NCBI GenBank assembly: GCA_016214905.1
Contig: JACRMQ010000007.1
Location: forward strand, 1 to 64,000
Source: Ignavibacteriales bacterium
Lineage (GTDB): Bacteria > Bacteroidota > Ignavibacteria > UBA10030 > SZUA-254
Reading direction: 5' to 3'
DNA: 64,000 bases
Shown: positions 8,806 through 31,568 of the stretch, piece after piece
Position numbering within the stretch: the stretch's first letter is position 1
How the letters are laid out: every line of letters starts with the position of its first letter
The notes under the pieces: model-generated
Told to the model about the DNA's origin: nothing
What the model saw: the letters and a program-made list of their open reading frames with translations, nothing else
The model's database searches: none
Position numbers and translations under genes: made by a program

Positions 8806-10425
8806 TTACCTTTTTAACGGCAGATACAACCGTATTGTTGTCCCTTTATTTTGTTTGCTTTCTATATTAATTTTTCCGTTATGATCGTCGATTATTTTTT
8901 TAACTATCGACATTCCAAGTCCGGTGCCGTGTTTCTTTCCGAAAGTGAAGAACGGTTCGAATATTTTTGCGCGCACATCTGGCGGCATTCCGCATCCCCG
9001 ATCGATAAATTCGATTACGAGAAATTCTTTTTCCTGAAAAACATTGACGGTCAATTTCCCGCCGTTCGGCATCGCATCGGCGGCATTGGATGCTATATTA
9101 TAGAAAGCCCGCAGAATCTTATCCGGATCAAGCATAATTTTGCCGCGATATTTTATTTTTTTCTCCAGCTTAATTTTGCGTCTATCCAAATCCCTGTCGA
9201 TGATCAAAAATATCGTCTTGCCTATGTCCGAGAAATCAAATTCCTGTAAATTCAATGTGCTGATCCCCCGCGCGTAATCTAAGATCTCCTGTGTCATCGC
9301 GGTGAATCTATCGATCTGCTGCATCATCTCTTCGGCAACTTTTTTTATCTCCTCATCGTGCGATCTTTTTTTAATAACCTGTGCCGATACACGCAACACT
9401 CCCATCGGATTTTTGATGTCGTGAATTATCGTGCTCGCCATTCTCCCCACGGCAGAGAGTCGCTCTTCCTGAATCATCCTTTGCGCAAGCTGGGCGTTTT
9501 CCAGAGCGAGCGAGGCATGAACGGAGAATGCCTCTATGAATGCTTCATCTTCTTTTGTAAAACATCCCTTGATCTTATTCAGAAGTTGAAACACGCCGAT
9601 TATTTTCCCATCCCGATTTTTCATCGGCATACATAAAGTTGATTTTGTGCGATAGCCGGTTCGTTGATCGACTTTCGGATTAAACCTTGAATCGCTGTAC
9701 GCATCGGGAATATTTATAACTTCTCCTGTTGCCGCAACAGCGCCGGCAATTCCGGAGCCAATCGGTAATCTGATCTCTACCTTTGAAGAACCTTTCTGTA
9801 CTTTTGACCATAATTCTTTTTTTGTATCATCGATTAGATATAAAGTGCCTCTATCGGCACCAACAGTTTTTGCAGCTGTTTGAAATATCAATTCTAAAAG
9901 GTGATCGACATCTATCGAGCTGTTCACTATTTTGGATGCTTCAACAAGTTGTTCCGTTTTATCAAGCTGAGTGCGGAGAGCGAACAAATTAGTCTCTTGG
10001 TGGAGCACATATGTCAAATTATTCGATCGTAACCGTAAAGTTACCATCGTAAGTAAATTCATCAAGAAAGCAGGACTTGCTTTAATCAGTTCATTGAATT
10101 GCTTACGCCCCATCCAGGCAAGTGAACACTTTCCTATTGCCGTTGCCTGCGCCGATCTCTGACGCCTGTCGATCAGATCAAGTTCACCGAAAAAATCTCC
10201 TTCATGCAATACACCTAAGATAATTTCTCCTCCCGTTTTCATTTTTTTGGATATCTTAACAGCGCCACCAAGAACTAAGAATAAGCAGTCTCCCTTTTGC
10301 TCATCTTTAAAGATGATTTTTCCATCAGGGTAATTTATTCTTTTAAGCGTACCTGAGGTGTTTTTAACAAGTTGAGGATCAACTTTATGAAATAATGCGT
10401 TCGATTTGATTTTATCCATTTTCAT
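8806..10425 (-). CDS. Sensor histidine kinase with cNMP-binding and GAF domains
   Basis: About 539 aa from the ATG at 10425; an upstream ATG at 10470 would add 15 residues not expected for the family. Domain order is a Crp-like cyclic-nucleotide-binding domain (about 10-125, with GDFFGELDLIDRRQRSA), a GAF domain (about 170-310), HisKA with phosphoacceptor His about 335 in ASTIIHDIKNPMG, and HATPase_c (NAADAMPNGG, DRGCGMPPD, GTGLGMSIVKKI). No transmembrane segment or receiver domain is seen, so it should be a soluble kinase sensing intracellular ligands. No response regulator gene is nearby. It is divergent from the repeat-protein gene at 10568, which makes that operon a candidate target. This target is inference from position only. 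Confidence 0.9.
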   Translation of the reverse strand: MKMDKIKSNALFHKVDPQLVKNTSGTLKRINYPDGKIIFKDEQKGDCLFLVLGGAVKISKKMKTGGEIILGVLHEGDFFGELDLIDRRQRSAQATAIGKCSLAWMGRKQFNELIKASPAFLMNLLTMVTLRLRSNNLTYVLHQETNLFALRTQLDKTEQLVEASKIVNSSIDVDHLLELIFQTAAKTVGADRGTLYLIDDTKKELWSKVQKGSSKVEIRLPIGSGIAGAVAATGEVINIPDAYSDSRFNPKVDQRTGYRTKSTLCMPMKNRDGKIIGVFQLLNKIKGCFTKEDEAFIEAFSVHASLALENAQLAQRMIQEERLSAVGRMASTIIHDIKNPMGVLRVSAQVIKKRSHDEEIKKVAEEMMQQIDRFTAMTQEILDYARGISTLNLQEFDFSDIGKTIFLIIDRDLDRRKIKLEKKIKYRGKIMLDPDKILRAFYNIASNAADAMPNGGKLTVNVFQEKEFLVIEFIDRGCGMPPDVRAKIFEPFFTFGKKHGTGLGMSIVKKIIDDHNGKINIESKQNKGTTIRLYLPLKR

Positions 10426-21751: not shown

Positions 21752-24700
21752 ATGCACAGAATATTTTTCTCCGTTTTGTTATGTTGTGTATTATCGTTTT
21801 GCAATTCCGGTTTTTCTTTCGGATCGGGAAATCAAAAAAATAAATCACATAGAACTCCTTCAACGGTTAACGACTTCACACAAATAAACATCAACAATAT
21901 TTCAACTTATGTTAAGAACGATGGAACATTCAACCGTATTCCATCAACCGGTAATTCAGGTTTTGAATGGCCAAAAGGCAGCGGCAAGACAGCTATCTAC
22001 GCATCCGGTTTGTGGATAGGCGGTATCGATGCCGCAACCGATTCTATTCGTATGGCGATTGCCGAATACAGTTCCGAGTATATTCCGGGTCCGATCGCTT
22101 CGGGTGTGAATATCTACGACCCGCGCTGGAAAGTTTATAAAATATCTACCGGAGACGACGCACTTAATAATCCCGATTATGCTAACTGGCCCGCTGAAGA
22201 CGGAGCGCCGTGGATCGATGTCAATAGTAATGGTGTTTGGGATCCCGGTGTCGATAAGCCCGAGCTTCTTGGCAATCAAACTGTCTGGTGCGTATTCAAT
22301 GATGCCGATCCAAACTATATACATAATATCCATCCTCAACCGGTCGGTGTAGAAATCCAGCTTACCGGTTTCGCGTACAATCAGGCCGGAGTTCTCGGCA
22401 ACACAATTTTTTACAAATGGAAAATCATAAACAAGGGCGGAAAAAATATCAACAATGCTTACGTAACCGTATGGTCTGATGATGATCTTGGAGAAGCCAG
22501 TAACGACCTGGCAGGTTGCGATACAATTCTCGGACTCGGCTACACATATAACAACGGCAGTGATGGAATATACGGCAGCGCGCCACCGGCAGTAGGTTTT
22601 GATTTTTTCCAGGGACCTATCGTTCCTTCTCCCGGCGACACGGCATATGTTTCTGGTAAATATATTCCGGATTATAAAAATTTAAAAATGACTTCTTTCA
22701 TACGATATAATAATGACGCCTCTAATATCGGTAATCCTAATACCGTTCAAGATGTGTATAATTACATGCGCTCATTTGATAAAAACGGTGTAAAGCTTCA
22801 AGACCCGCTCGGAAATCCGGTAGACTTCATGTTTCCGGGAGATCCCAACCAAGGGAATAATCCTCCGACTAATTGGATTGATAATAATCCGTTTGATGTA
22901 AGGTACATGATTACTTCGGGTCCATTCAATCTGGCGCCGGGCGATACGCAGGAAATTGTCGCTGCTAACATGATAGCATCGGGATATAATCCGGTTAACA
23001 GTGTATCGATTTTAAAAGTGGCAGACCTTGTTGCCCAATCTGTTTATGACAACAATTTCCGTTATGCACCTCCCGCCACATCGATCTCCTTAGATTATGT
23101 AAGCAGCCAATTGACGAGAGTTAAATTACAAGCTGATGCGAACGGTATCAACGCGACAAACATTACCGCATACCTGCGGAAGTACGACACAACGATCGCC
23201 GTCCTCGAACAATTATTTGACGATGGTCTTCATAACGATATTGCTAATGGCGACAATATTTTCGGGAATCTGATTCCGGTCGTGCGTCAGGACAGCGGTT
23301 TATACCTCGATCTCGAGGTCACTTACAATGATGCCAATGTCATTCGCTGGCCCCACGTAATTGAAGAAATCACTACCACCGGTCCTATAACCGTCACAAG
23401 CAGCACCATTAACGCCGACAATTTAAACAACGACGACATTCCGAACCCGGGAGAAACTGTCCGGTTCAATTTTACTCTTAATAATAATTCTTTCACCAAT
23501 TTACCGAACATCAAACTCTCAACCGAGCCGACAGGAGAGATAAAAACTATAGATATAGGAACATTAAACACCGGTTCATCCTATACGATGAATTACATTC
23601 CGGATGATGTTAATTCATACTTTAGTTTTTACGTCGACCCCGGTTATTCCGACTCGGTATATCATGTCAAGATTATAATATCAGATTCGAGCAGGAATCG
23701 TTGGACAGACACGCTGACATTCCCCGTTGAGCAATACAGAGATGAAATCTATGGAACACCTTTGTACCACGCATCCGGAAAAAGTGACTGGATGATTAAT
23801 TCTACCATCATTGATCCTGCCGCCTCAACCGATCATCTCTATCTTATTACAGTTACAGATTCTGTTGATACGAATCGTAACCAGGGAATAACTCTTAAAG
23901 ACACAGAAACGGGTGACACGCTTTTTTCAAAATTAAACATTCAAACTCTGTTAGATGGCGGATACTCTGTTCCGGTTGCGGACGGAATAAAATTAATAGC
24001 CGGCGATAATTTCGGAAGCATGGGTCTTCACCGCGATTCAACTATCTGGATTTCCAACTATCCGGCTTGGTTTGAGGGTAATCGTTTCAACATCGATGAA
24101 CACAGGGCTTTTAACAACGGTGTAACAACCGGATCGATGCTGTTCAATTATCTCGGTCATATGTCTCCAACTTTTTCTTCTAAAAAATCTTTTCCTGTTG
24201 AAGTCCGATTCGATGTCGGCAACACACAGAAAGCATATCGTTTGAGACGTACCGGGCCAAGTAACGGTTACATGATTCAATCTATAAATCCGTTTGTCAA
24301 TCTTCCGTTCAGCGTGTGGGATATAAGCAATCCTTCCGCCCCGCGTCAGATTACGATTGCCTGGCGCGATCAAAATGATAACAGTATCTGGGATCCAACA
24401 ACGATTGACGATGGCGTTGAGATTATTTATATCTACAATAAAACATACAACCCATCGATGAGCACTCAATTTTCCATGCCACCCGCGGCAATCGAAGACG
24501 AAACAACAATCGGCGGCAATGCCGATATCGTTTACGGTTTATCATTAAAAATAAAATCGGGACATATATTGAATGAAAACCCCGGCATCTTGTTCATCCG
24601 TCCCAATTATCAACTCGATTCTTCAGATACATTTATCATTAACCCAAAATTATTTTATTCTATCTCAAAAGGATGGAACATCGTCTCCATTCCAACCCAA

Positions 24701-25792
24701 TGCCCCAGTTATCATAAGCAATATCATTTCCCCAACGCGGTATCAAAAGCTTTCGCTTATAACGGCACATATCAAGCTGTCGATTTTCCGGAACAAGGGA
24801 TTGGTTATTGGTTGAAATTTTCAGAAGATCATAACGTTGCCGTGGTTGGAACACCGAGTGTTGAGGAAACAATTAAAGTGAGGGCGGGTTGGAACATGAT
24901 CGGGTCTATTTCTTATCCCGTTGATGTGAATGGCTTGATTTCTGATCCTGCCGGAAATATTGTTTCGAGTTATTTTGGATTCACGGGCGGGTATCAAATT
25001 GCCGATACAATTTACCCCGGCGCGGGTTATTGGATTAAAACAAACGACAGCGGTTATATTATCATCTATCGTACGTTCAGTTTTCTTAAAAATGAATCCG
25101 CAAAAAAAACAGTCGAACAACTCAGCCGCATAACCATCACCGACGCGAGCGGAAGTTCGCGCAATCTCTATTTCGGTTTTTATACGGATGAATTTAAAAA
25201 GGATCTTTTTGAATTACCTCCATTGCCGCCGCAGGGAGTGTTCGATTTACGTTTCAAATCTCAATCGTTTGTGGAGTGCATCAAAAAAGGAGAGCGCGGA
25301 GAATTTCCGATATTGCCGACCGACGCGATATATCCTGTCAAAATTTCATGGTATAACTCCCAATCAGGTATAAGCGCAAAACTTATAATTGATTCGAAGA
25401 AAGTCGGCTTAGACAATAACGGCACAATAACACTTAACAGCCAAGCATCCGAGTTGAAACTTGTTCTTGAAACGGGAAATACAATCCCGATTGAATTCGC
25501 GCTTCATCAAAATTATCCGAACCCGTTCAATCCTGTTACAACAATTAAATATGAAGTTCCAAAGACGAGTCATGTTTCGTTACGGATTTATAATTTATTG
25601 GGACAGGAAGTAAAATGCCTGATCGATGAAATCATCGAAGCGGGTTATCATGAAATAGAATGGAATGGTTCAAACAATTACGGAGTTCCGGTAGCAAACG
25701 GTGTTTATTTCTACCGGATGTTTACCCGCCCAACAGTTGGCGGGCAAACCAAATCTTTTAACGATGTGAAGAAGATGATAATAGTAAAATAA
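21752..25792 (+). CDS. Large secreted protein with type IX secretion (type A) sorting tail
   Basis: The 1346-aa product has a signal peptide (about 1-24, LLCCVLSFCNSGFSFG) and a long region of Asn/Asp/Gly-rich extracellular beta domains (about 40-960). Two tandem GWN modules follow (GWN at about 974 and 1046, again 72 residues apart, with GYW after each). The C-terminal sorting domain (about 1254-1346) has NYPNPFNPVTTIKYEV, LRIYNLLGQEV and GVYFYRMF. The tail directs export through the T9SS and attachment to the surface. Start is the ATG at 21752 with GGAGG upstream. A long stem-loop follows the stop. Function is unknown; no catalytic motif is recognised. Confidence 0.9.
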   Translation: MHRIFFSVLLCCVLSFCNSGFSFGSGNQKNKSHRTPSTVNDFTQININNISTYVKNDGTFNRIPSTGNSGFEWPKGSGKTAIYASGLWIGGIDAATDSIRMAIAEYSSEYIPGPIASGVNIYDPRWKVYKISTGDDALNNPDYANWPAEDGAPWIDVNSNGVWDPGVDKPELLGNQTVWCVFNDADPNYIHNIHPQPVGVEIQLTGFAYNQAGVLGNTIFYKWKIINKGGKNINNAYVTVWSDDDLGEASNDLAGCDTILGLGYTYNNGSDGIYGSAPPAVGFDFFQGPIVPSPGDTAYVSGKYIPDYKNLKMTSFIRYNNDASNIGNPNTVQDVYNYMRSFDKNGVKLQDPLGNPVDFMFPGDPNQGNNPPTNWIDNNPFDVRYMITSGPFNLAPGDTQEIVAANMIASGYNPVNSVSILKVADLVAQSVYDNNFRYAPPATSISLDYVSSQLTRVKLQADANGINATNITAYLRKYDTTIAVLEQLFDDGLHNDIANGDNIFGNLIPVVRQDSGLYLDLEVTYNDANVIRWPHVIEEITTTGPITVTSSTINADNLNNDDIPNPGETVRFNFTLNNNSFTNLPNIKLSTEPTGEIKTIDIGTLNTGSSYTMNYIPDDVNSYFSFYVDPGYSDSVYHVKIIISDSSRNRWTDTLTFPVEQYRDEIYGTPLYHASGKSDWMINSTIIDPAASTDHLYLITVTDSVDTNRNQGITLKDTETGDTLFSKLNIQTLLDGGYSVPVADGIKLIAGDNFGSMGLHRDSTIWISNYPAWFEGNRFNIDEHRAFNNGVTTGSMLFNYLGHMSPTFSSKKSFPVEVRFDVGNTQKAYRLRRTGPSNGYMIQSINPFVNLPFSVWDISNPSAPRQITIAWRDQNDNSIWDPTTIDDGVEIIYIYNKTYNPSMSTQFSMPPAAIEDETTIGGNADIVYGLSLKIKSGHILNENPGILFIRPNYQLDSSDTFIINPKLFYSISKGWNIVSIPTQCPSYHKQYHFPNAVSKAFAYNGTYQAVDFPEQGIGYWLKFSEDHNVAVVGTPSVEETIKVRAGWNMIGSISYPVDVNGLISDPAGNIVSSYFGFTGGYQIADTIYPGAGYWIKTNDSGYIIIYRTFSFLKNESAKKTVEQLSRITITDASGSSRNLYFGFYTDEFKKDLFELPPLPPQGVFDLRFKSQSFVECIKKGERGEFPILPTDAIYPVKISWYNSQSGISAKLIIDSKKVGLDNNGTITLNSQASELKLVLETGNTIPIEFALHQNYPNPFNPVTTIKYEVPKTSHVSLRIYNLLGQEVKCLIDEIIEAGYHEIEWNGSNNYGVPVANGVYFYRMFTRPTVGGQTKSFNDVKKMIIVK

Positions 25793-25803
25793 AATATCTG
25801 CCT

Positions 25804-25851
25804 GAGCTCCGGCTTCTATCAACGCAATAATTTAGATAGAAGCCGGAGTTC
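25804..25851 (+). terminator. Long stem-loop after the T9SS protein gene
   Basis: CTCCGGCTTCTATC (25807-25820) pairs perfectly with GATAGAAGCCGGAG (25835-25848), with a 14-nt loop. Flanking bases extend the stem to about 17 bp with one wobble. No T-run follows, so it may act as an mRNA-stabilising hairpin or a rho-assisted terminator rather than a classical intrinsic terminator. It lies just outside the cassette-like region. Confidence 0.5.
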
Positions 25852-25912
25852 TACAGCAGATTGCTCTTCACAAAGTGATGGCTTCGACACGAATTTTTCA
25901 TTAATCAGTGGC

Positions 25913-26063
25913 GCATAACGTTCGGTGAATAATGCAATACTTCTGTGAGCATATCAATCTCATTCAAGCGAACAAAAGTATTGAGATTCATCGGCAGAGT
26001 TGATTTTCTTTTCACTGTAAAACCCGTGCGTCATTTTTACGGCTGTTAGCCGTCGTGTTACAA
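25913..26063 (-). other. attC-like recombination site A
   Basis: An imperfect palindrome of about 150 bp downstream of the CFI-box gene. The left boundary is GCATAACGT (core GTTATGC on the minus strand). The right boundary is GTGTTACAA. Internal arms GCAATACTT and AAGTATTG pair. The left end shares TAACGT and the following CGG/GCAAT pattern with sites B, C and D. The core boxes deviate from GTTRRRY by one or two bases, so this is the second weakest of the five sites. Confidence 0.5.
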
Positions 26064-26084
26064 CCAAGCGATCAATAATGTTTG

Positions 26085-26579
26085 TCAAGACAATAGTTCT
26101 GTATTTAGAGAACTGACAATCCTGAAAATGTTGTCAAATGCCTGCCGCTCTTTACCAGAATGTATCAAGCTCACGGACGAGACCACAAGGTTATCGAAAA
26201 GGAAATTGTAAATGGAACTAGCATTTTGAGATCTGTTGATAATCGAAACGATTTGGGGTGCGATACGTTTGTACTCCGAAATAAGTTCAGAACCGTTTGG
26301 GAGGTGGACTACATAAGTGTCTCTAAACCGCCTTAGTGTTTCAAGCTCTGGACAATTGTCGGGCAGCCCTTTTGCTTCTATACAAGCAGACGTTATGAAA
26401 CATCCACCTGATTTTTCTTCTTCACCTTTTTCGTATCCAGCATCATATGATTTCTCTTCTTTTGTGCTAGATAGAGGTTTTGAAAAGTTGTCATGTATCC
26501 AGTGGGAGAGCCCATCATCCTTCTTTGCATTCTCTTTCCCTTTTTCAAACTGCTCGTCATATTTGTTTTTCTCTGTCAT
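26085..26579 (-). CDS. CFI-box-like protein (cassette gene 1), function unknown
   Basis: The 164-aa product has a charged N-terminus with two EKGxE/YDxxYEKG repeats (about 5-55). A glycine-cysteine motif GGCFITSACIEAKGLPDNC follows (about 58-76), then ETLRRFRDTYV and a helical C-terminus. The CFIT-A-C/E...LRxFRDxY string resembles the CFI-box domain seen in many small bacterial proteins. In those the box is usually near the C-terminus; here about 85 residues follow. An AAAGGAT SD precedes the ATG. It lies between attC-like sites A and B and shares orientation with its neighbours. No biochemical role is known to me. Confidence 0.7.
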   Translation of the reverse strand: MTEKNKYDEQFEKGKENAKKDDGLSHWIHDNFSKPLSSTKEEKSYDAGYEKGEEEKSGGCFITSACIEAKGLPDNCPELETLRRFRDTYVVHLPNGSELISEYKRIAPQIVSIINRSQNASSIYNFLFDNLVVSSVSLIHSGKERQAFDNIFRIVSSLNTELLS

Positions 26580-26616
26580 AAAGTAATATCCTTTCTTTTT
26601 GGTTGTGTAGCATGGC

Positions 26617-26763
26617 GGCTAACGTGTCGCAAAAGTACGCAATGCTGAAGTGAACTCATAACAAACTAATTATCGTAAGCGGAAGCATTGAGCGATTCGA
26701 GACTCAATGTCGAAGAATCTCTCAGGAAAATTTGGTTGAGCGTTATGTTTTTGCTTGTTAGGC
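26617..26763 (-). other. attC-like recombination site B
   Basis: A 147-bp imperfect palindrome bounded by GGCTAACGT (26617-26625) and TTGTTAGGC (to 26763). GTTAGGC matches the GTTRRRY core exactly; the other core differs by one base. Internal arms GCAATGCT and AGCATTG, and GTCGCAAAA and TTTTTGC, can pair. It separates cassette genes 1 and 2 and shares its end sequences with sites C and D. Confidence 0.65.
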
Positions 26764-26810
26764 GTTCGTTGTTTTTCACTCGTTGAAGGCCAATCGACAT
26801 TATCCCCATA

Positions 26811-27236
26811 CTATTCCTTACTAAGTATGTTAAGATATGTCTGAACACGATTGATTAATATATTTGATCGTTTGTCAATAAATTTAGAACCTTTTCGTAT
26901 TGTATATACATTACATGATTTCCCCTCGTCGTAAGGGAATGGCTGTTGAGCTTGCTCGTAAGTCGGATCAATAGCTTCCGTTTTGTCCTCTTTACAAAGC
27001 CACCAATGTGTACCACCGTCGGCTGTATTGCACCAATTCGGTTGGAATCCTCTGTCTTTTGCAAACAAATGAAAGCAAGCATGCGTTGCCACAAAGCAAT
27101 GCCCCTTTACGTTCAAATCTTTTAGGTCGTGCAAGCGTTGCAGTTCTGTAGTGAGTAGATCAGGCGAGAGGCATGACCGGACAGCATCGAAAAATATTTG
27201 ATCTTCAGGTGATAATCGATTTAATGGTATTTTCAT
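26811..27236 (-). CDS. Small protein with Cys/His/Asp pattern (cassette gene 2)
   Basis: The 141-aa product contains GHCFVATHACFHLF (about 45-58), NTADGGTHWWLCKED (about 70-84) and AIDPTYEQ (about 88-95). The order Cys, His (in GTHWW) and Asp (in IDPT) resembles a papain-like or NlpC/P60-like arrangement. Related uncharacterised phage and bacterial proteins share the G-C-x-VA, GGTHWF and VIDxT motifs. A role as a small cysteine hydrolase is inference. It lies between attC-like sites B and C. Confidence 0.7.
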   Translation of the reverse strand: MKIPLNRLSPEDQIFFDAVRSCLSPDLLTTELQRLHDLKDLNVKGHCFVATHACFHLFAKDRGFQPNWCNTADGGTHWWLCKEDKTEAIDPTYEQAQQPFPYDEGKSCNVYTIRKGSKFIDKRSNILINRVQTYLNILSKE

Positions 27237-27286
27237 TATGATTACTCTTCAAAAAGATGCCAAGCATCTAAGTGCAAAACAATGAC

Positions 27287-27440
27287 GCCTAACGTGTGCG
27301 CAAACTATGCCACGCCGCCCGTCCACGCTTGCGTTCTTCCCAAATGACGCGCGGTGTGGCGCGAACTCCACTGTGGCGCGCGTCGGTATTGTGCGTGAGC
27401 TTTGACAATGTGTGAGCGTCGTAGTTTGTCGGTGTTAGGC
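27287..27440 (-). other. attC-like recombination site C (best of the set)
   Basis: A 154-bp imperfect palindrome with perfectly complementary core boxes GCCTAAC (27287-27293) and GTTAGGC (27434-27440). Both fit RYYYAAC/GTTRRRY. Next to them, GCGCAAACTATG pairs with GTCGTAGTTTGT, as the inner L boxes of attC sites do, with small mismatches that would bulge bases. The middle is GC-rich and self-complementary. It separates cassette genes 2 and 3. Confidence 0.75.
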
Positions 27441-27462
27441 GCAGGGCTTTTTGCTGATTTCA

Positions 27463-28224
27463 TCATATACCTGATGGTCGCCAAGCCATGAAATCGTAAA
27501 GAGGATACAAAAGCTCCAAGTTGGAAATCATTTCAGCACGTATTCGGTCGATATCTAGCAAAGTATCATCAGGTTTATATTCCTTGACGATCCCAGAATA
27601 TACTCCGCCTTTATCCTTCTTTACAAATCGGATGAGTTGGTCTTGCGTTAAGCCAGTTTGAAGGGGAAGTACAGACGAATCAATTTCATAGAAGAAGCCC
27701 TTTCCCAGTAAGGGAGTGACAAGCTGGAACAGTCTCTGCCGCTCAGCTTGGCCACGATTCAGCCGTTTGAGATACTCGGATCGATCATAATAGTTCTTGT
27801 CGGTAGCCAGAAGCAACCAGCACCGAAAGCAATCTGCGTTGATATAGAACTGGACTCGTGTGTGAAGATAGAATGCGTTGTAGTATTCGTCATCATCAAT
27901 CTTTCGATAGTCGTAGCCACCTAGAGTTTTCAGAAAGTCCAATTGCTCACGACTCTTTCCATAATGAAGCCACATCCCGTCGATGTACTTAACAACAGGT
28001 GTTCCATCGGGCAGGAAAACAAAATGATGGCTCGAGACATAATGCGTGGCTTGTCTGTGTCTGTGAAGATCCCAACCTGAGTGGTCAATAAATGGCCACA
28101 GCATGTCGTCAAGCTGGAGGAGGGCTTGGCGAACCCTTCCCCTCTCTGCGATAGTCGGTGGGTCATCGAGAGTTGGTTTCGGTTGATCAAATGCTGCGTA
28201 ATGAAATGTATGAAACAGTTTCAT
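27463..28224 (-). CDS. Hypothetical protein (cassette gene 3)
   Basis: About 253 aa from the ATG at 28224, which has GAAGGAT about 7 bp upstream. A longer reading to 28275 would run into attC-like site D and is rejected. The protein is rich in aromatic residues and His (LFHTFHYAAF, HYVSSHHFVFLPDGTPVVKY, YYNAFYLHTRVQFYINADCF). It has no signal peptide or membrane helix and no domain I recognise. It lies between attC-like sites C and D, in the same orientation as the other cassette genes. Confidence 0.7.
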   Translation of the reverse strand: MKLFHTFHYAAFDQPKPTLDDPPTIAERGRVRQALLQLDDMLWPFIDHSGWDLHRHRQATHYVSSHHFVFLPDGTPVVKYIDGMWLHYGKSREQLDFLKTLGGYDYRKIDDDEYYNAFYLHTRVQFYINADCFRCWLLLATDKNYYDRSEYLKRLNRGQAERQRLFQLVTPLLGKGFFYEIDSSVLPLQTGLTQDQLIRFVKKDKGGVYSGIVKEYKPDDTLLDIDRIRAEMISNLELLYPLYDFMAWRPSGI

Positions 28225-28254
28225 ATTATATCCTTCAATTGCAGAAAGTCTTGC

Positions 28255-28382
28255 GCCTAACGTCTCGGCAAACAACGCAATATTTTTGTGAACCTATAAT
28301 TCTCATTGTCGTGAACAAAAATATTGAGTAAGGCTTTTCATAATTCTGATTCCATCTAACGTCGTTATTTGCCGTGTTATCT
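28255..28382 (-). other. attC-like recombination site D
   Basis: A 128-bp imperfect palindrome. The left core GCCTAACGT (28255-28263) fits the consensus. The right end is GCCGTGTTATCT (to 28382), with a degenerate core. A perfect 12-bp internal stem pairs CAATATTTTTGT (28278-28289) with ACAAAAATATTG (28315-28326). CGGCAAACAACG near the left end pairs with CGTTATTTGCCG near the right end. It separates cassette genes 3 and 4. Confidence 0.65.
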
Positions 28383-28401
28383 GCAGTGCCGTAGTTACTA
28401 T

Positions 28402-29769
28402 TTATTTCTTTGTAACATTTTTGATTGTTTCACTCGTGTTCTTAAGCGTTTCGAGAATATCCTTTTCTTCGGAATCTGATTTGTCCTTTGCTGAGATTGG
28501 TGAGTGGTAGATACCATTGACTGCATTTACAATTAGCTGATCTTTGCTCTCGTCTTTCGTCAATAATTTTGAATATGCATTGATTGTCAAGGCAACCGCA
28601 GATTTGAATGCATATTGCTCTTGGTAGGTTCTTTCTCTTGAGTATTGACGAATGGCGAAAAATAAGAGAATAAAAAATGGAATCGTCTTAAGAGAATTGA
28701 GAGCCAATCTCTCCCAGCCAAGGTCAATCGTGGCGGTACCGTATAGACCAAAGATGTTTGTAAAGATGGCATAAATTCCTACGACTGTGATCATACTCAT
28801 CCCAAGAACTGCCCACTTCCAGAAACGCACAGGGTGGCTGAGTTCATTTTTTCTTTGTTTAAAAGTCTCAAACAGCGATGCGCCTACTTCTCGGCCAATG
28901 AGTTCATCTAGATAAGCATTTCTTTCGTCGAATATTTTTTTCTTCTCTTCAACGTAATCGAGTTGTTTTTTGAATTCAATATTCTGGTCTTGAATTTGAG
29001 TAATTTCGGATTTCGCATCATCCATTAGCTCTTCTGATTTCGAACCGAATGACTTCAGCAAATTGCGTGCTTCATCGATTGCTTTGCTGGCTTGATCGAG
29101 ATTCTTGTTTTGTTGTTCAAGAAGAGTATCAATGCGGGTGCTTGACGAGTTACTCTTGTTAAGTAGCTCATTGATTTGATTGGTCTGTTGATTTGCGGTC
29201 TGTAAGTTAACCGAGATTTGATCTAGTTGTTTTCGTTTCGTTGCCTCGAACTCATTTATTTCATTCTTCTTTTTCTCAAGTTCATTAAATATTTGATCTC
29301 TAAGTTGTATATTCTTGGTAAGATGGTCAGAGATTAGCTTGAGACGGTTTTCGATTTCTGTAATTCTCAAGCCACGAAGATCATGTACCTTAAGACTAGA
29401 CTTATCAAAGAACCCATGGATCACTTGGTAGTGTGCCAATTTTAGGAGAAGGGCTTCGCTGGGTTTGAATTGCATCTCCTTGATTTGGTTATAAAAATTG
29501 TAGAGATCGTTCTGTAAGTTTAATGCTCCAAAGTCATCGTGAGCATTGACATTCAATGGCAACAGCAACCCGAGCCCAGTTGTAAGTTCAGACTTAAGTT
29601 GGATAAGAACTCTACGTGTTAAGTTTACAAACTCGGGGACAGTGAGTTGATTGACCTTTGTGCGGGATATATCCTGATCTGCGTAAAGTGTGGCAAGCAA
29701 TCGGTCAATATCAAGCTGGTTGAATTCTTCGATCTTGGTTAATATTGTTTGGATTTGGATCGGGTCCAT
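28402..29769 (-). CDS. Coiled-coil protein with two C-terminal membrane helices (cassette gene 4)
   Basis: The 455-aa product has an N-terminal helical region (about 1-140), then a long Gln/Asn/Lys/Glu-rich coiled coil (about 140-300, with repeated QTNQ/LLEQQNK phrases). Two transmembrane helices follow at about 325-345 and 365-385 (WAVLGMSMITVVGIYAIF; TIPFFILLFFAIRQY). The tail is cytoplasmic and charged. GAGAGGA precedes the ATG as SD. The architecture is that of a membrane-anchored scaffold or sensor, but no enzymatic domain is visible. Large for a cassette gene, it lies between attC-like sites D and E. Confidence 0.72.
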   Translation of the reverse strand: MDPIQIQTILTKIEEFNQLDIDRLLATLYADQDISRTKVNQLTVPEFVNLTRRVLIQLKSELTTGLGLLLPLNVNAHDDFGALNLQNDLYNFYNQIKEMQFKPSEALLLKLAHYQVIHGFFDKSSLKVHDLRGLRITEIENRLKLISDHLTKNIQLRDQIFNELEKKKNEINEFEATKRKQLDQISVNLQTANQQTNQINELLNKSNSSSTRIDTLLEQQNKNLDQASKAIDEARNLLKSFGSKSEELMDDAKSEITQIQDQNIEFKKQLDYVEEKKKIFDERNAYLDELIGREVGASLFETFKQRKNELSHPVRFWKWAVLGMSMITVVGIYAIFTNIFGLYGTATIDLGWERLALNSLKTIPFFILLFFAIRQYSRERTYQEQYAFKSAVALTINAYSKLLTKDESKDQLIVNAVNGIYHSPISAKDKSDSEEKDILETLKNTSETIKNVTKK

Positions 29770-29823
29770 ATTTTACAATGTCCTCTCTTGTCTCTTTATA
29801 TAATTACGATTACACGGCATTGC

Positions 29824-29967
29824 ACATAACGTTGCGCGGGAAAAACGAAGTGGGCGGACGAGTCGAAGACTCGGACAAACATTTGAGTTTTCCTAACTGT
29901 CGTGAAACGCTTTTTGTCAGAATTTCCCACGACAGCTGAAAGCGGGAAAATACAAGATCTGTTATAG
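29824..29967 (-). other. Possible attC-like site E (weak)
   Basis: A region of about 144 bp between cassette genes 4 and 5. It begins ACATAACGTTGCGCGGG, sharing ATAACGT with the other sites, and ends CTGTTATAG. Internal hairpins are CGAGTC-GAA-GACTCG (29859-29873) and CTGTCGTG...CACGACAG (29897-29935). The right core box is degenerate, and overall end-to-end pairing is poorer than in B-D. Confidence 0.4.
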
Positions 29968-29983
29968 GTTGTATCTTCATAGT

Positions 29984-30802
29984 TTAAATAATAGTAAAGT
30001 TAAGTATAACTTTTTCTCGCAATTTCTTTTCGATTACTACCCGATAAAATAAATCCGATTTAATTTGAATATAAAACTCATCCATCTTCAATATATTAAC
30101 TGAAGTAGCTTCAAAAGGACCACTTATGTTTTTTGATATACCAAATATACCTTTAAATGAAAGCGTTAAAACTTCTTCGCTGATATTATTTGCGATCTTG
30201 TAACCGACTTCATATTTAATAGTAGCAAGCTCGTCTAATAGTGCCTTCGTTTCATTTGCTTCAATTGTTATAATAAATCTCGACGGTACTTCTTCCGTTG
30301 GATTATCTTTGAGAGTGTCTGACAATAGAGGTGTATTTTCAGCTATGCGTTTCACCTCATGTGACGACAACGAGGATAGAGTATCGGACAATTGTGATCT
30401 ATTTTCATAAACCGGACTATTGTTTTGCTGTTCGAGAACTGCACGGACGTTATTATCATCAAGCGAGTACCAACACCCTGTCGCTGCGTCAATTACAACT
30501 GGAAATAAACCAAATATTACATCCAGAACAATCCAACCTGCCCCAACTGAATTAGTTACAATTACAGTTCTCTTTTCATAACCTTCTTTGGCGAATTCGA
30601 AGTAATAGGTCTTGGCAGATTGCAATTTTATTTGTAATGGAGTTTTACCCATCAAGTTACCATTGACGTAGATTTTTGCACCACCCGGTTCAGAAGAAAT
30701 ATCAACTTTTTCTGTTGAACCTTTAAATATTGTTGCGCATCCGGAAAATAACATAACGGTAACAACAACTGTTATTATGATCCATTGAGAGTTTTTGTTC
30801 AT
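29984..30802 (-). CDS. PEGA-domain lipoprotein
   Basis: The 272-aa product has a lipoprotein signal (VVVTVMLFSGCATIFKGS) with lipobox Cys at about 22. A PEGA-type domain follows (VDISSEPGGAKIYVNGNLMGKTPLQIKL, about 33-60), then FEFAKEGYEKRTVIVT, and a hydrophobic glycine-rich stretch GAGWIVLDVIFGLFPVVIDAATG. The C-terminal part is unfamiliar. PEGA modules occur on surface proteins that contact cell wall or polymers. AAGGA lies before the ATG. It is the last minus-strand gene of the cassette-like run, and it may be cassette 5 or ordinary chromosome flank. Confidence 0.8.
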   Translation of the reverse strand: MNKNSQWIIITVVVTVMLFSGCATIFKGSTEKVDISSEPGGAKIYVNGNLMGKTPLQIKLQSAKTYYFEFAKEGYEKRTVIVTNSVGAGWIVLDVIFGLFPVVIDAATGCWYSLDDNNVRAVLEQQNNSPVYENRSQLSDTLSSLSSHEVKRIAENTPLLSDTLKDNPTEEVPSRFIITIEANETKALLDELATIKYEVGYKIANNISEEVLTLSFKGIFGISKNISGPFEATSVNILKMDEFYIQIKSDLFYRVVIEKKLREKVILNFTII

Positions 30803-31050: not shown

Positions 31051-31366
31051 ATTCAATCGGGGACTCCCCGCTTCCAATCTGTAAGTTCGCACTTACTGTC
31101 TGCAAGTCCCCGGATTCAATCAGGGACTCCCCACTTTCAATATGCACGGGTTATCGCGCCGCCGTACACTTTCCAGATTCAATTTGTAACCTCGCACTTT
31201 ATATCTGCAACTCCCCAAATTCAATCCGGGACTCCGCCCTTAGAATGCGGGACTATGCGGTGGAATCTGCAGGTTCGCACTTTCAATTCGGGGAGTTGCA
31301 CTTTCAATCTGCGAACTCGCATTTGGAAAGTGCCCACTTGCACTTTCTGTTTGGGGAGTGTACGGT
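31051..31366. repeat. Degenerate 21-bp tandem repeat tract (about 15 units)
   Basis: About 15 imperfect copies of a 21-bp unit, approximately TTTCAATCTGGGACTCCGCAC, run from 31051 to 31366, with one 20-bp unit near 31260. Read in one frame the units give a heptapeptide pattern such as IQSGTPH or FQSVSSH. The frame breaks at the 20-bp unit and no upstream SD supports translation, so I treat it as non-coding. The remainder of the 766-bp gap (30803-31050 and 31367-31568) shows no supported gene, although an ORF runs on to 31556. Confidence 0.75.
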
Positions 31367-31568
31367 GACGGCGATAATTACCCCGATACAATCTGCGTTT
31401 ACCCGCACGGGAGGTGCGCACTGTATTTTGCCTGATGGGAAACCCACGCCGTTAATTGGAGACACCACTACTGCGAAAATAATCTCCCACCGTGGAAAGG
31501 GAAGCATAACATCTCTGGGTGGATTAACTAACATTACATATTTACAATTAATATAGGAGGGTATTGTC

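Follow-up and report, generated by a model that had tools for sequence, protein, structure and literature searches.

The locus considered here raises the question of whether a row of small genes with no integrase beside it can be a genuine array of integron cassettes and, if so, which recombinase could have assembled it. The row lies in a window comprising bases 1-64000 of contig JACRMQ010000007.1 (C7 below) of an Ignavibacteriales bacterium, whose genome (G000) amounts to 3.3 Mb in 10 contigs and is 99.6% complete. A first-pass annotation had proposed a cassette array resembling a cluster of attC sites lacking integron-integrases (CALIN), and this proposal is borne out by a covariance model trained on other species, by covariation and by the complementarity of cassette ends: positions 25919-29829 of the minus strand are a genuine chain of four integron cassettes, ended by the sites attC D, C, B and A. 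By itself, the feature is an ordinary cassette array of the kind known in other phyla. Comparison with the sequences of the remaining contigs and of related genomes makes it quite probable that it is the detached array of a chromosomal integron whose platform is contig C1, and which would be run by a sister of the integron integrase IntI devoid of the I2/patch III insertion ("patch-less" below).

Four cassettes on the minus strand

The four co-oriented genes, each bordered by an imperfect palindrome, were confirmed as open reading frames next to palindromes A to D. The components of the array are listed below; attC scores are those of the covariance model R3, arm matches compare the start and end of one cassette, and an arrow marks a cassette boundary.

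29822-29970, minus strand: palindrome of site E; cassette 1 starts at its R' (G at 29830)
29820-29889, minus strand: entry junction of site E, ending ...GCGCAAC↓GTTATGTGC; its R' matches the end arm of cassette 1
28261-29829, minus strand: cassette 1, from the TT of the site E R' to the G of attC D; arm match 12/17
28402-29769, minus strand: gene of cassette 1, an open reading frame of 455 residues with a coiled coil and membrane segments by eye; no curated family
28252-28383, minus strand: attC D, 99.4 bits, E = 1.4e-18; 88% identity to one attC of the C1 array
27293-28260, minus strand: cassette 2; arm match 14/17; inverted repeat I6 at 27434-27454/28241-28261
27463-28224, minus strand: gene of cassette 2, about 253 residues; no Pfam, NCBIfam or PADLOC match
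27284-27441, minus strand: attC C, 50.7 bits, E = 1.9e-8; cores fully complementary (GCCTAAC/GTTAGGC)
26623-27292, minus strand: cassette 3; arm match 14/17
26811-27236, minus strand: gene of cassette 3, 141 residues; no family match in Pfam, NCBIfam or PADLOC
26614-26764, minus strand: attC B, 81.1 bits, E = 8.9e-15
25919-26622, minus strand: cassette 4; arm match 12/17
26085-26579, minus strand: gene of cassette 4, 164 residues, with a CFI-box-CTERM domain (NF041770, 52.8 bits, cut-off 40)
25910-26052, minus strand: attC A, 64.8 bits, E = 2.2e-11; the last site, whose R' abuts non-cassette DNA

The window sites were first aligned with sites spotted by eye on contig C1, and their inner arms were found to covary. 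Because circularity was to be avoided, model R3 was then trained solely on sites of other species. On the 64-kb window it matched exactly A, B, C and D (E from 1.4e-18 to 1.9e-8), and with filters off over 25-33 kb the next-best match (E = 0.11) was the reverse strand of D. The sites expected by the first-pass annotation at B, C and D were thereby recovered, together with A; the perfectly complementary cores of site C and the TAACGT/ACGTTA motif shared by the sites also proved real. In an alignment of 60 sites from other genomes (A5), 87% of the cells pair and double changes number 390, versus 142 in shuffles and no more than 106 after sliding of the partners; these sites had been aligned to a related model, so that the counts lean towards that model, but sliding the partners kills the signal. 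Sites A to D thus possess the attC architecture of paired R''/R' (AAC/GTT) and L''/L' arms, according to both R3 and covariation. A model-free hairpin scan of the window at relaxed settings was too weak, giving 3 and 8 mated matches on the two strands versus 0-2 in shuffles, and mismatches in the inner arms of A and B caused it to overlook both sites. Therefore, the case for the window rests on the covariance model and on a comparison of cassette arms.

An integron cassette runs from TTRRRY to the G of its attC. Pairing is therefore expected between the left arm of a site and the first bases of its own cassette, which are located in the previous site. Over 53 neighbouring site pairs, the end arm matched the start of its own cassette at a mean of 10.3 of 14 positions, compared with 5.8 within sites and 5.6 for arbitrary pairs, and matches of at least 11 of 14 were reached by 33 pairs versus 0. 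In the window, the cassettes of A to D have mates agreeing at 12, 14, 14 and 12 of 17 positions, every other arm pairing reaches 10 or fewer, and the background probability of at least 12 is 8e-4. Cassette ends of the G↓TT type, in which the end arm of a cassette complements its own start, are thus found both in the window and among the 53 pairs, and the cassette boundaries are fixed by this test. Ordinary terminators or repetitive extragenic palindromic (REP) elements would not give such a pattern of mates. The coincidence of unrelated palindromes between co-oriented genes, however common intergenic palindromes are, is refuted by the independent E-values of the models, the covariation, the cassette mates and the same chain structure in dozens of loci.

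Outer cassette arms at other loci (e.g. L009, L069, L102 and L123) pair over 10-22 nucleotides, with a nearly constant mismatch at nucleotide 11 (A in the start versus C in the end arm) or a CA/TCG bulge. This extended pairing was considered as a hallmark of a new type of site and was dropped, since it also occurs on a contig of G079, a genome with canonical IntI.

At the entrance of the array, the first-pass annotation had noted a fifth, weaker palindrome (E) beside a gene for a PEGA protein (29984-30802). Its R' does start the first cassette; site E was matched by no covariance model (R1 or R3, over the window and in the filters-off run over 25-33 kb), and its left half remains without a mate. 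On its sequence, site E is best described as an entry junction only. The PEGA gene was tried as a fifth cassette and rejected: the left half (end arm) of site E finds no mate upstream, and the gene is therefore not demonstrated as a cassette. Just upstream of it, at 31051-31370, imperfect repeats of about 21 nucleotides (ATTCAATCGGGGACTCCCCGC...) occur in tandem and inverted order. A 70-bp segment of site E (29820-29889) is 97% identical by blastn to an element without an open reading frame that sits on C1 between attI and the first gene cassette. This GC-rich element (L009 10660-10898) may be an ORF-less cassette that moved.

The absence of a tyrosine recombinase from the 64-kb window, as noted at the first pass, was confirmed; among the listed matches of the IntI model on C7 (830 kb), the nearest lies about 240 kb or more away. 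With four sites and no recombinase match within hundreds of kilobases on this contig, the array has the make-up of a CALIN (at least two attC sites and no integron integrase nearby). Locally, therefore, it is a CALIN.

A patch-less recombinase with attI and cassettes on contig C1

The description "without an integrase" holds for the vicinity of the array but not for the genome, in which contig C1 carries a tyrosine recombinase, attI and cassettes. Following the suggestion that further attC copies be sought, model R1 found about 30 sites in the whole genome, in arrays on C1, C4, C6 and the window and as single sites. The C1 array comprises about eight co-oriented attC-like sites that run to the contig end, directly behind an intact recombinase gene of 308 codons (L009:9722-10648) in the same orientation. 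A canonical intI, also to be sought according to the first-pass annotation, was not recovered: no match in G000 reaches the IntI cut-off, and the patch-less gene was found instead.

The C1 recombinase scores 245.1 bits against the IntI model TIGR02249 (curated cut-off 265), and five relatives score 217-241. Model positions 181-231 are left unmatched by it, and the I2/patch III insertion of about 36-40 residues is absent from all array-linked relatives aligned, while being present in the canonical IntI of G012, a genome of the same family. The catalytic R, K, HxxR, H and Y are invariant in 22 sequences. The protein passes the cut-off of NF040815 (XerA_Arch) and lies far under those for XerD (190.5 vs 329.6 bits) and XerC (189.4 vs 335 bits); the same genome encodes a separate XerD over the cut-off and a XerC-like protein 2 bits under it. 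By sequence, its closest solved structure is IntI4. An AlphaFold model (predicted local distance difference test score 79.8) contains no extra helix at the position of the insertion; a fold search with it matched many tyrosine recombinases, the nearest being archaeal Xer (Z 22) and IntI4 (Z 20.7), with a resemblance to XerA and XerH as well, and gave no discrimination between IntI and Xer. In a tree of 60 recombinases, IntI forms one clade (100/100), and the patch-less group stands beside it, apart from Xer (98/81). As the tree was rooted by midpoint, it leaves undecided whether the insertion was lost or never present.

Several further features accompany these genes. Immediately before the C1 recombinase gene there is a tandem repeat (gaagcaatgacacaataaa...; L009 about 9040-9410), different from the repeats beside the PEGA gene. 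Some array-linked patch-less recombinases bear an extra N-terminal domain of about 100 residues (...PGHKWHPDDKRWSFPL...; L071 7726-8985 and L075 3158-4018). One cassette gene of the C1 array (L009 14311-15027) has a TIR-effector-like C-terminal part (PADLOC, 41 bits) and is a possible defence gene.

The attI site was defined by its junction, that is, by seeking upstream the mate of the end arm of the first attC. At loci whose stop codon was placed cleanly, this junction lies 32-73 nucleotides past the end of the recombinase gene; the frame or a broken gene led to a wrongly placed computed stop at three loci, and at L104 the junction is farther off. It often falls inside a conserved short palindrome, e.g. 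GTAATAACGCAATATTGCGTTATTACAGAT↓GTT, and many candidate attI sites are short palindromes with TTACAGAT↓GTT or a similar sequence at their end. With attI so defined, a recombinase gene, attI and a cassette array occur in cis at C1 and 17 further loci, as well as at loci from the wider phylum. In the C6 array of G000 (L082, 454209-462600) and an array of G008 (contig C33, L087 about 5089), the 3' tail of a recombinase gene and an attI-like palindrome still precede the first cassette. These two arrays look like decaying platforms, and the label of CALIN would be given to them.

The C1 platform probably serves the window array. A cassette would be a circle with one folded attC, consisting of paired outer R''/R' arms, paired L''/L' arms and a hairpin apex, with spacers of 1-2 nucleotides versus 4-5 nucleotides. 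The patch-less recombinase would act on this folded single strand and join the cassette at G↓TT either to a further attC or to the attI downstream of the gene that encodes it. In this way, genes may be taken up and lined up in one orientation, and may be excised and transferred to secondary arrays; that of the window would be one of these and may still be mobilised from C1.

Linkage across genomes and competing explanations

Across the 15 genomes searched in the family, the patch-less gene and attC sites mostly occur together. The order is represented by 98 genomes, of which 32 have the gene, 55 have attC sites and 22 have canonical IntI over the cut-off. Arrays of at least three sites are associated with the patch-less gene (25 genomes with both, 7 with the gene only, 12 with sites only and 54 with neither; odds ratio 16, p = 1.6e-8), and 20 of the 30 genomes with at least five sites have the patch-less type only. 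The attC sites lie directly downstream of the gene, on its own strand, at 18 loci of the order (one of them, L091, from a named record), these being the loci for which downstream sequence was available; one scan of genome contigs gave only 13. At many other copies the contig breaks just downstream, as repeats would cause. Near-identical segments common to C1, C4 and C6 of G000 also lie at contig ends.

Across the phylum, 48 of 395 genomes have relatives of the recombinase at E = 1e-65 or better. The 20 loci examined yielded four more strong R3-type arrays, and at most of the remaining ones a model-free scan gave mated sites, often about 120 nucleotides long, including in single-contig genomes; in 10 of the 20, the first mate lies 39-142 nucleotides past the recombinase match. 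No insertion is seen in the spans of the recombinase alignments. The cases outside the class rest on this simple model-free scan. No array was found within the flanks examined around the patch-less relatives of Runella, one Bacteroidia metagenome-assembled genome and two archaea. It seems reasonably likely that a clade of tyrosine recombinases sister to IntI, which never had or has lost the insertion, runs true integrons with attI and folded attC sites across Bacteroidota.

Several points weigh against this reading. The genomes are related, and the p-values of the linkage therefore overstate independence. Four genomes with at least five sites have neither integrase, and some genomes with canonical IntI, e.g. 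G079 with IntI alone, carry attC sites of this type, so that cassettes may be common to both kinds of integrase. Several copies of the patch-less gene (G006 and G010) are broken or truncated, and the choice of hairpin strand was inferred solely from model score and gene direction. Moreover, integron recombination is held to require the additional domain, according to Messier and Roy as cited in PMC9668308 and to PMC7790495; loss of function or another role is therefore possible for the patch-less enzymes.

Among the alternatives, the one that survives best is that the window array is a dead remnant whose cassettes were stranded by rearrangement and no longer move, which is a serious if doubtful possibility. 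Neither attI nor a recombinase stands beside the array, site E is partial and the last R' abuts non-cassette DNA, as such a remnant would have it. On the other hand, none of the four cassettes has lost its matched arms, foldable attC site or open reading frame, and an intact recombinase is present in the same genome. A cassette of another G000 array is, in addition, common to another genus: a cassette of about 900 nucleotides is shared at 87% between the C4 array and G008, with the similarity starting at the cassette start and the upstream flanks differing.

Unlikely, yet deserving of attention, is a dif-like reaction, in which the patch-less recombinase would act on double-stranded DNA, with the L'-R' half of attC and the palindrome of attI serving as duplex sites, and the long hairpin would have another purpose. 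The frequent near-perfect short palindrome beside the crossover in attI, the absence of the helix credited with single-strand recombination (PMC7790495) and the resemblance of the fold to XerA and XerH are all in keeping with it. Covariation, however, ties both arms of the whole hairpin across genera, and the outer arms pair over the whole cassette, as a folded-strand substrate predicts.

Still less probable is the gathering of ordinary cassettes by a canonical IntI, since lost or acting in trans from other cells, with the patch-less recombinase being an unrelated neighbour or a parasite that targets the array entrance. The 22 IntI-bearing genomes of the order and the attC type of G079 would fit this explanation. 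However, arrays of at least three sites show no association with canonical IntI in the 98 genomes (odds ratio 0.7, p = 0.62), in contrast to the patch-less gene; no match in the nearly complete G000 reaches the IntI cut-off; and in many genera the junction of attI and first cassette keeps the same position and orientation, shortly after the patch-less gene. A detached array of a patch-less integron is thus preferred as the explanation of the window cassettes.

Surroundings of the array and relation to known integrons

Outside the cassettes, a 17-bp inverted repeat (94%) at 25804-25851 follows directly after a gene for a type IX secretion system (T9SS)/FlgD-type protein (21752-25792); it is probably the terminator of that gene and marks the outer border of the array. 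For synteny with a sister species, the flanking T9SS protein has many paralogues and the PEGA protein is without a relative in the family. The contig starts with a ribosomal RNA operon (1-2674: small-subunit rRNA, two tRNAs and the start of the large-subunit rRNA), and Rfam matched only rRNA and tRNA in the window, with no attC match. As for the cassette genes, SMC-like matches of the first were weak and below cut-off only (Pfam, NCBIfam and PADLOC), and a search of the window genes for a defence role with PADLOC gave only weak coiled-coil matches.

The chromosomal (sedentary) integrons of Vibrio and relatives share with the arrays described here a directional layout, RYYYAAC/GTTRRRY cores, G↓TT boundaries, hairpin folding, open reading frames mostly of unknown function and large sites similar to the Vibrio cholerae repeats. 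They differ in that canonical intI is divergent from its array and carries the I2/patch III insertion, whereas here the recombinase is upstream and co-oriented, with attI past its 3' end. Integrase genes oriented as the cassettes have been described as atypical in Treponema (PMC3607928), where the enzymes are treated as ordinary integron integrases. The window array resembles the CALINs of IntegronFinder (PMC9024848) in having at least two attC sites and no integrase nearby; unlike them, its genome has a candidate integrase, which would fail a profile demanding the IntI-specific domain. A domain-based survey would therefore probably call every array here a CALIN. XerA, XerC, XerD and XerH likewise lack the I2 insertion, but the C1 recombinase, although over the NF040815 cut-off, is nearest to IntI4 by sequence and linked to attC sites, and its genome has its own XerD and XerC-like protein.

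The inserted helix to which single-strand recombination is attributed has served to define IntI and to select integrases in surveys, and work on IntI evolution has stressed the missing intermediates (PMC7790495, PMC2426708 and PMC9668308). In the portions of a report on an integron-like subgroup of tyrosine recombinases that were available (PMC8138268), insertion-less members are not tied to attC arrays and the insertion is called essential. No paper in the open-access literature was found to tie insertion-less members to such arrays; preprints and subscription papers were outside this search, and priority is uncertain. What sets the locus apart is the platform that accompanies the window array, not the array itself. 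If the reading offered here is true, the insertion would be dispensable for cassette recombination, and the intermediate missing from the history of integrons may be preserved in the patch-less clade, or may have arisen there again by reversion. Many CALINs of Bacteroidota would then be complete integrons overlooked by definition, and the origin of integrons from Xer-like enzymes would become directly testable with natural proteins.

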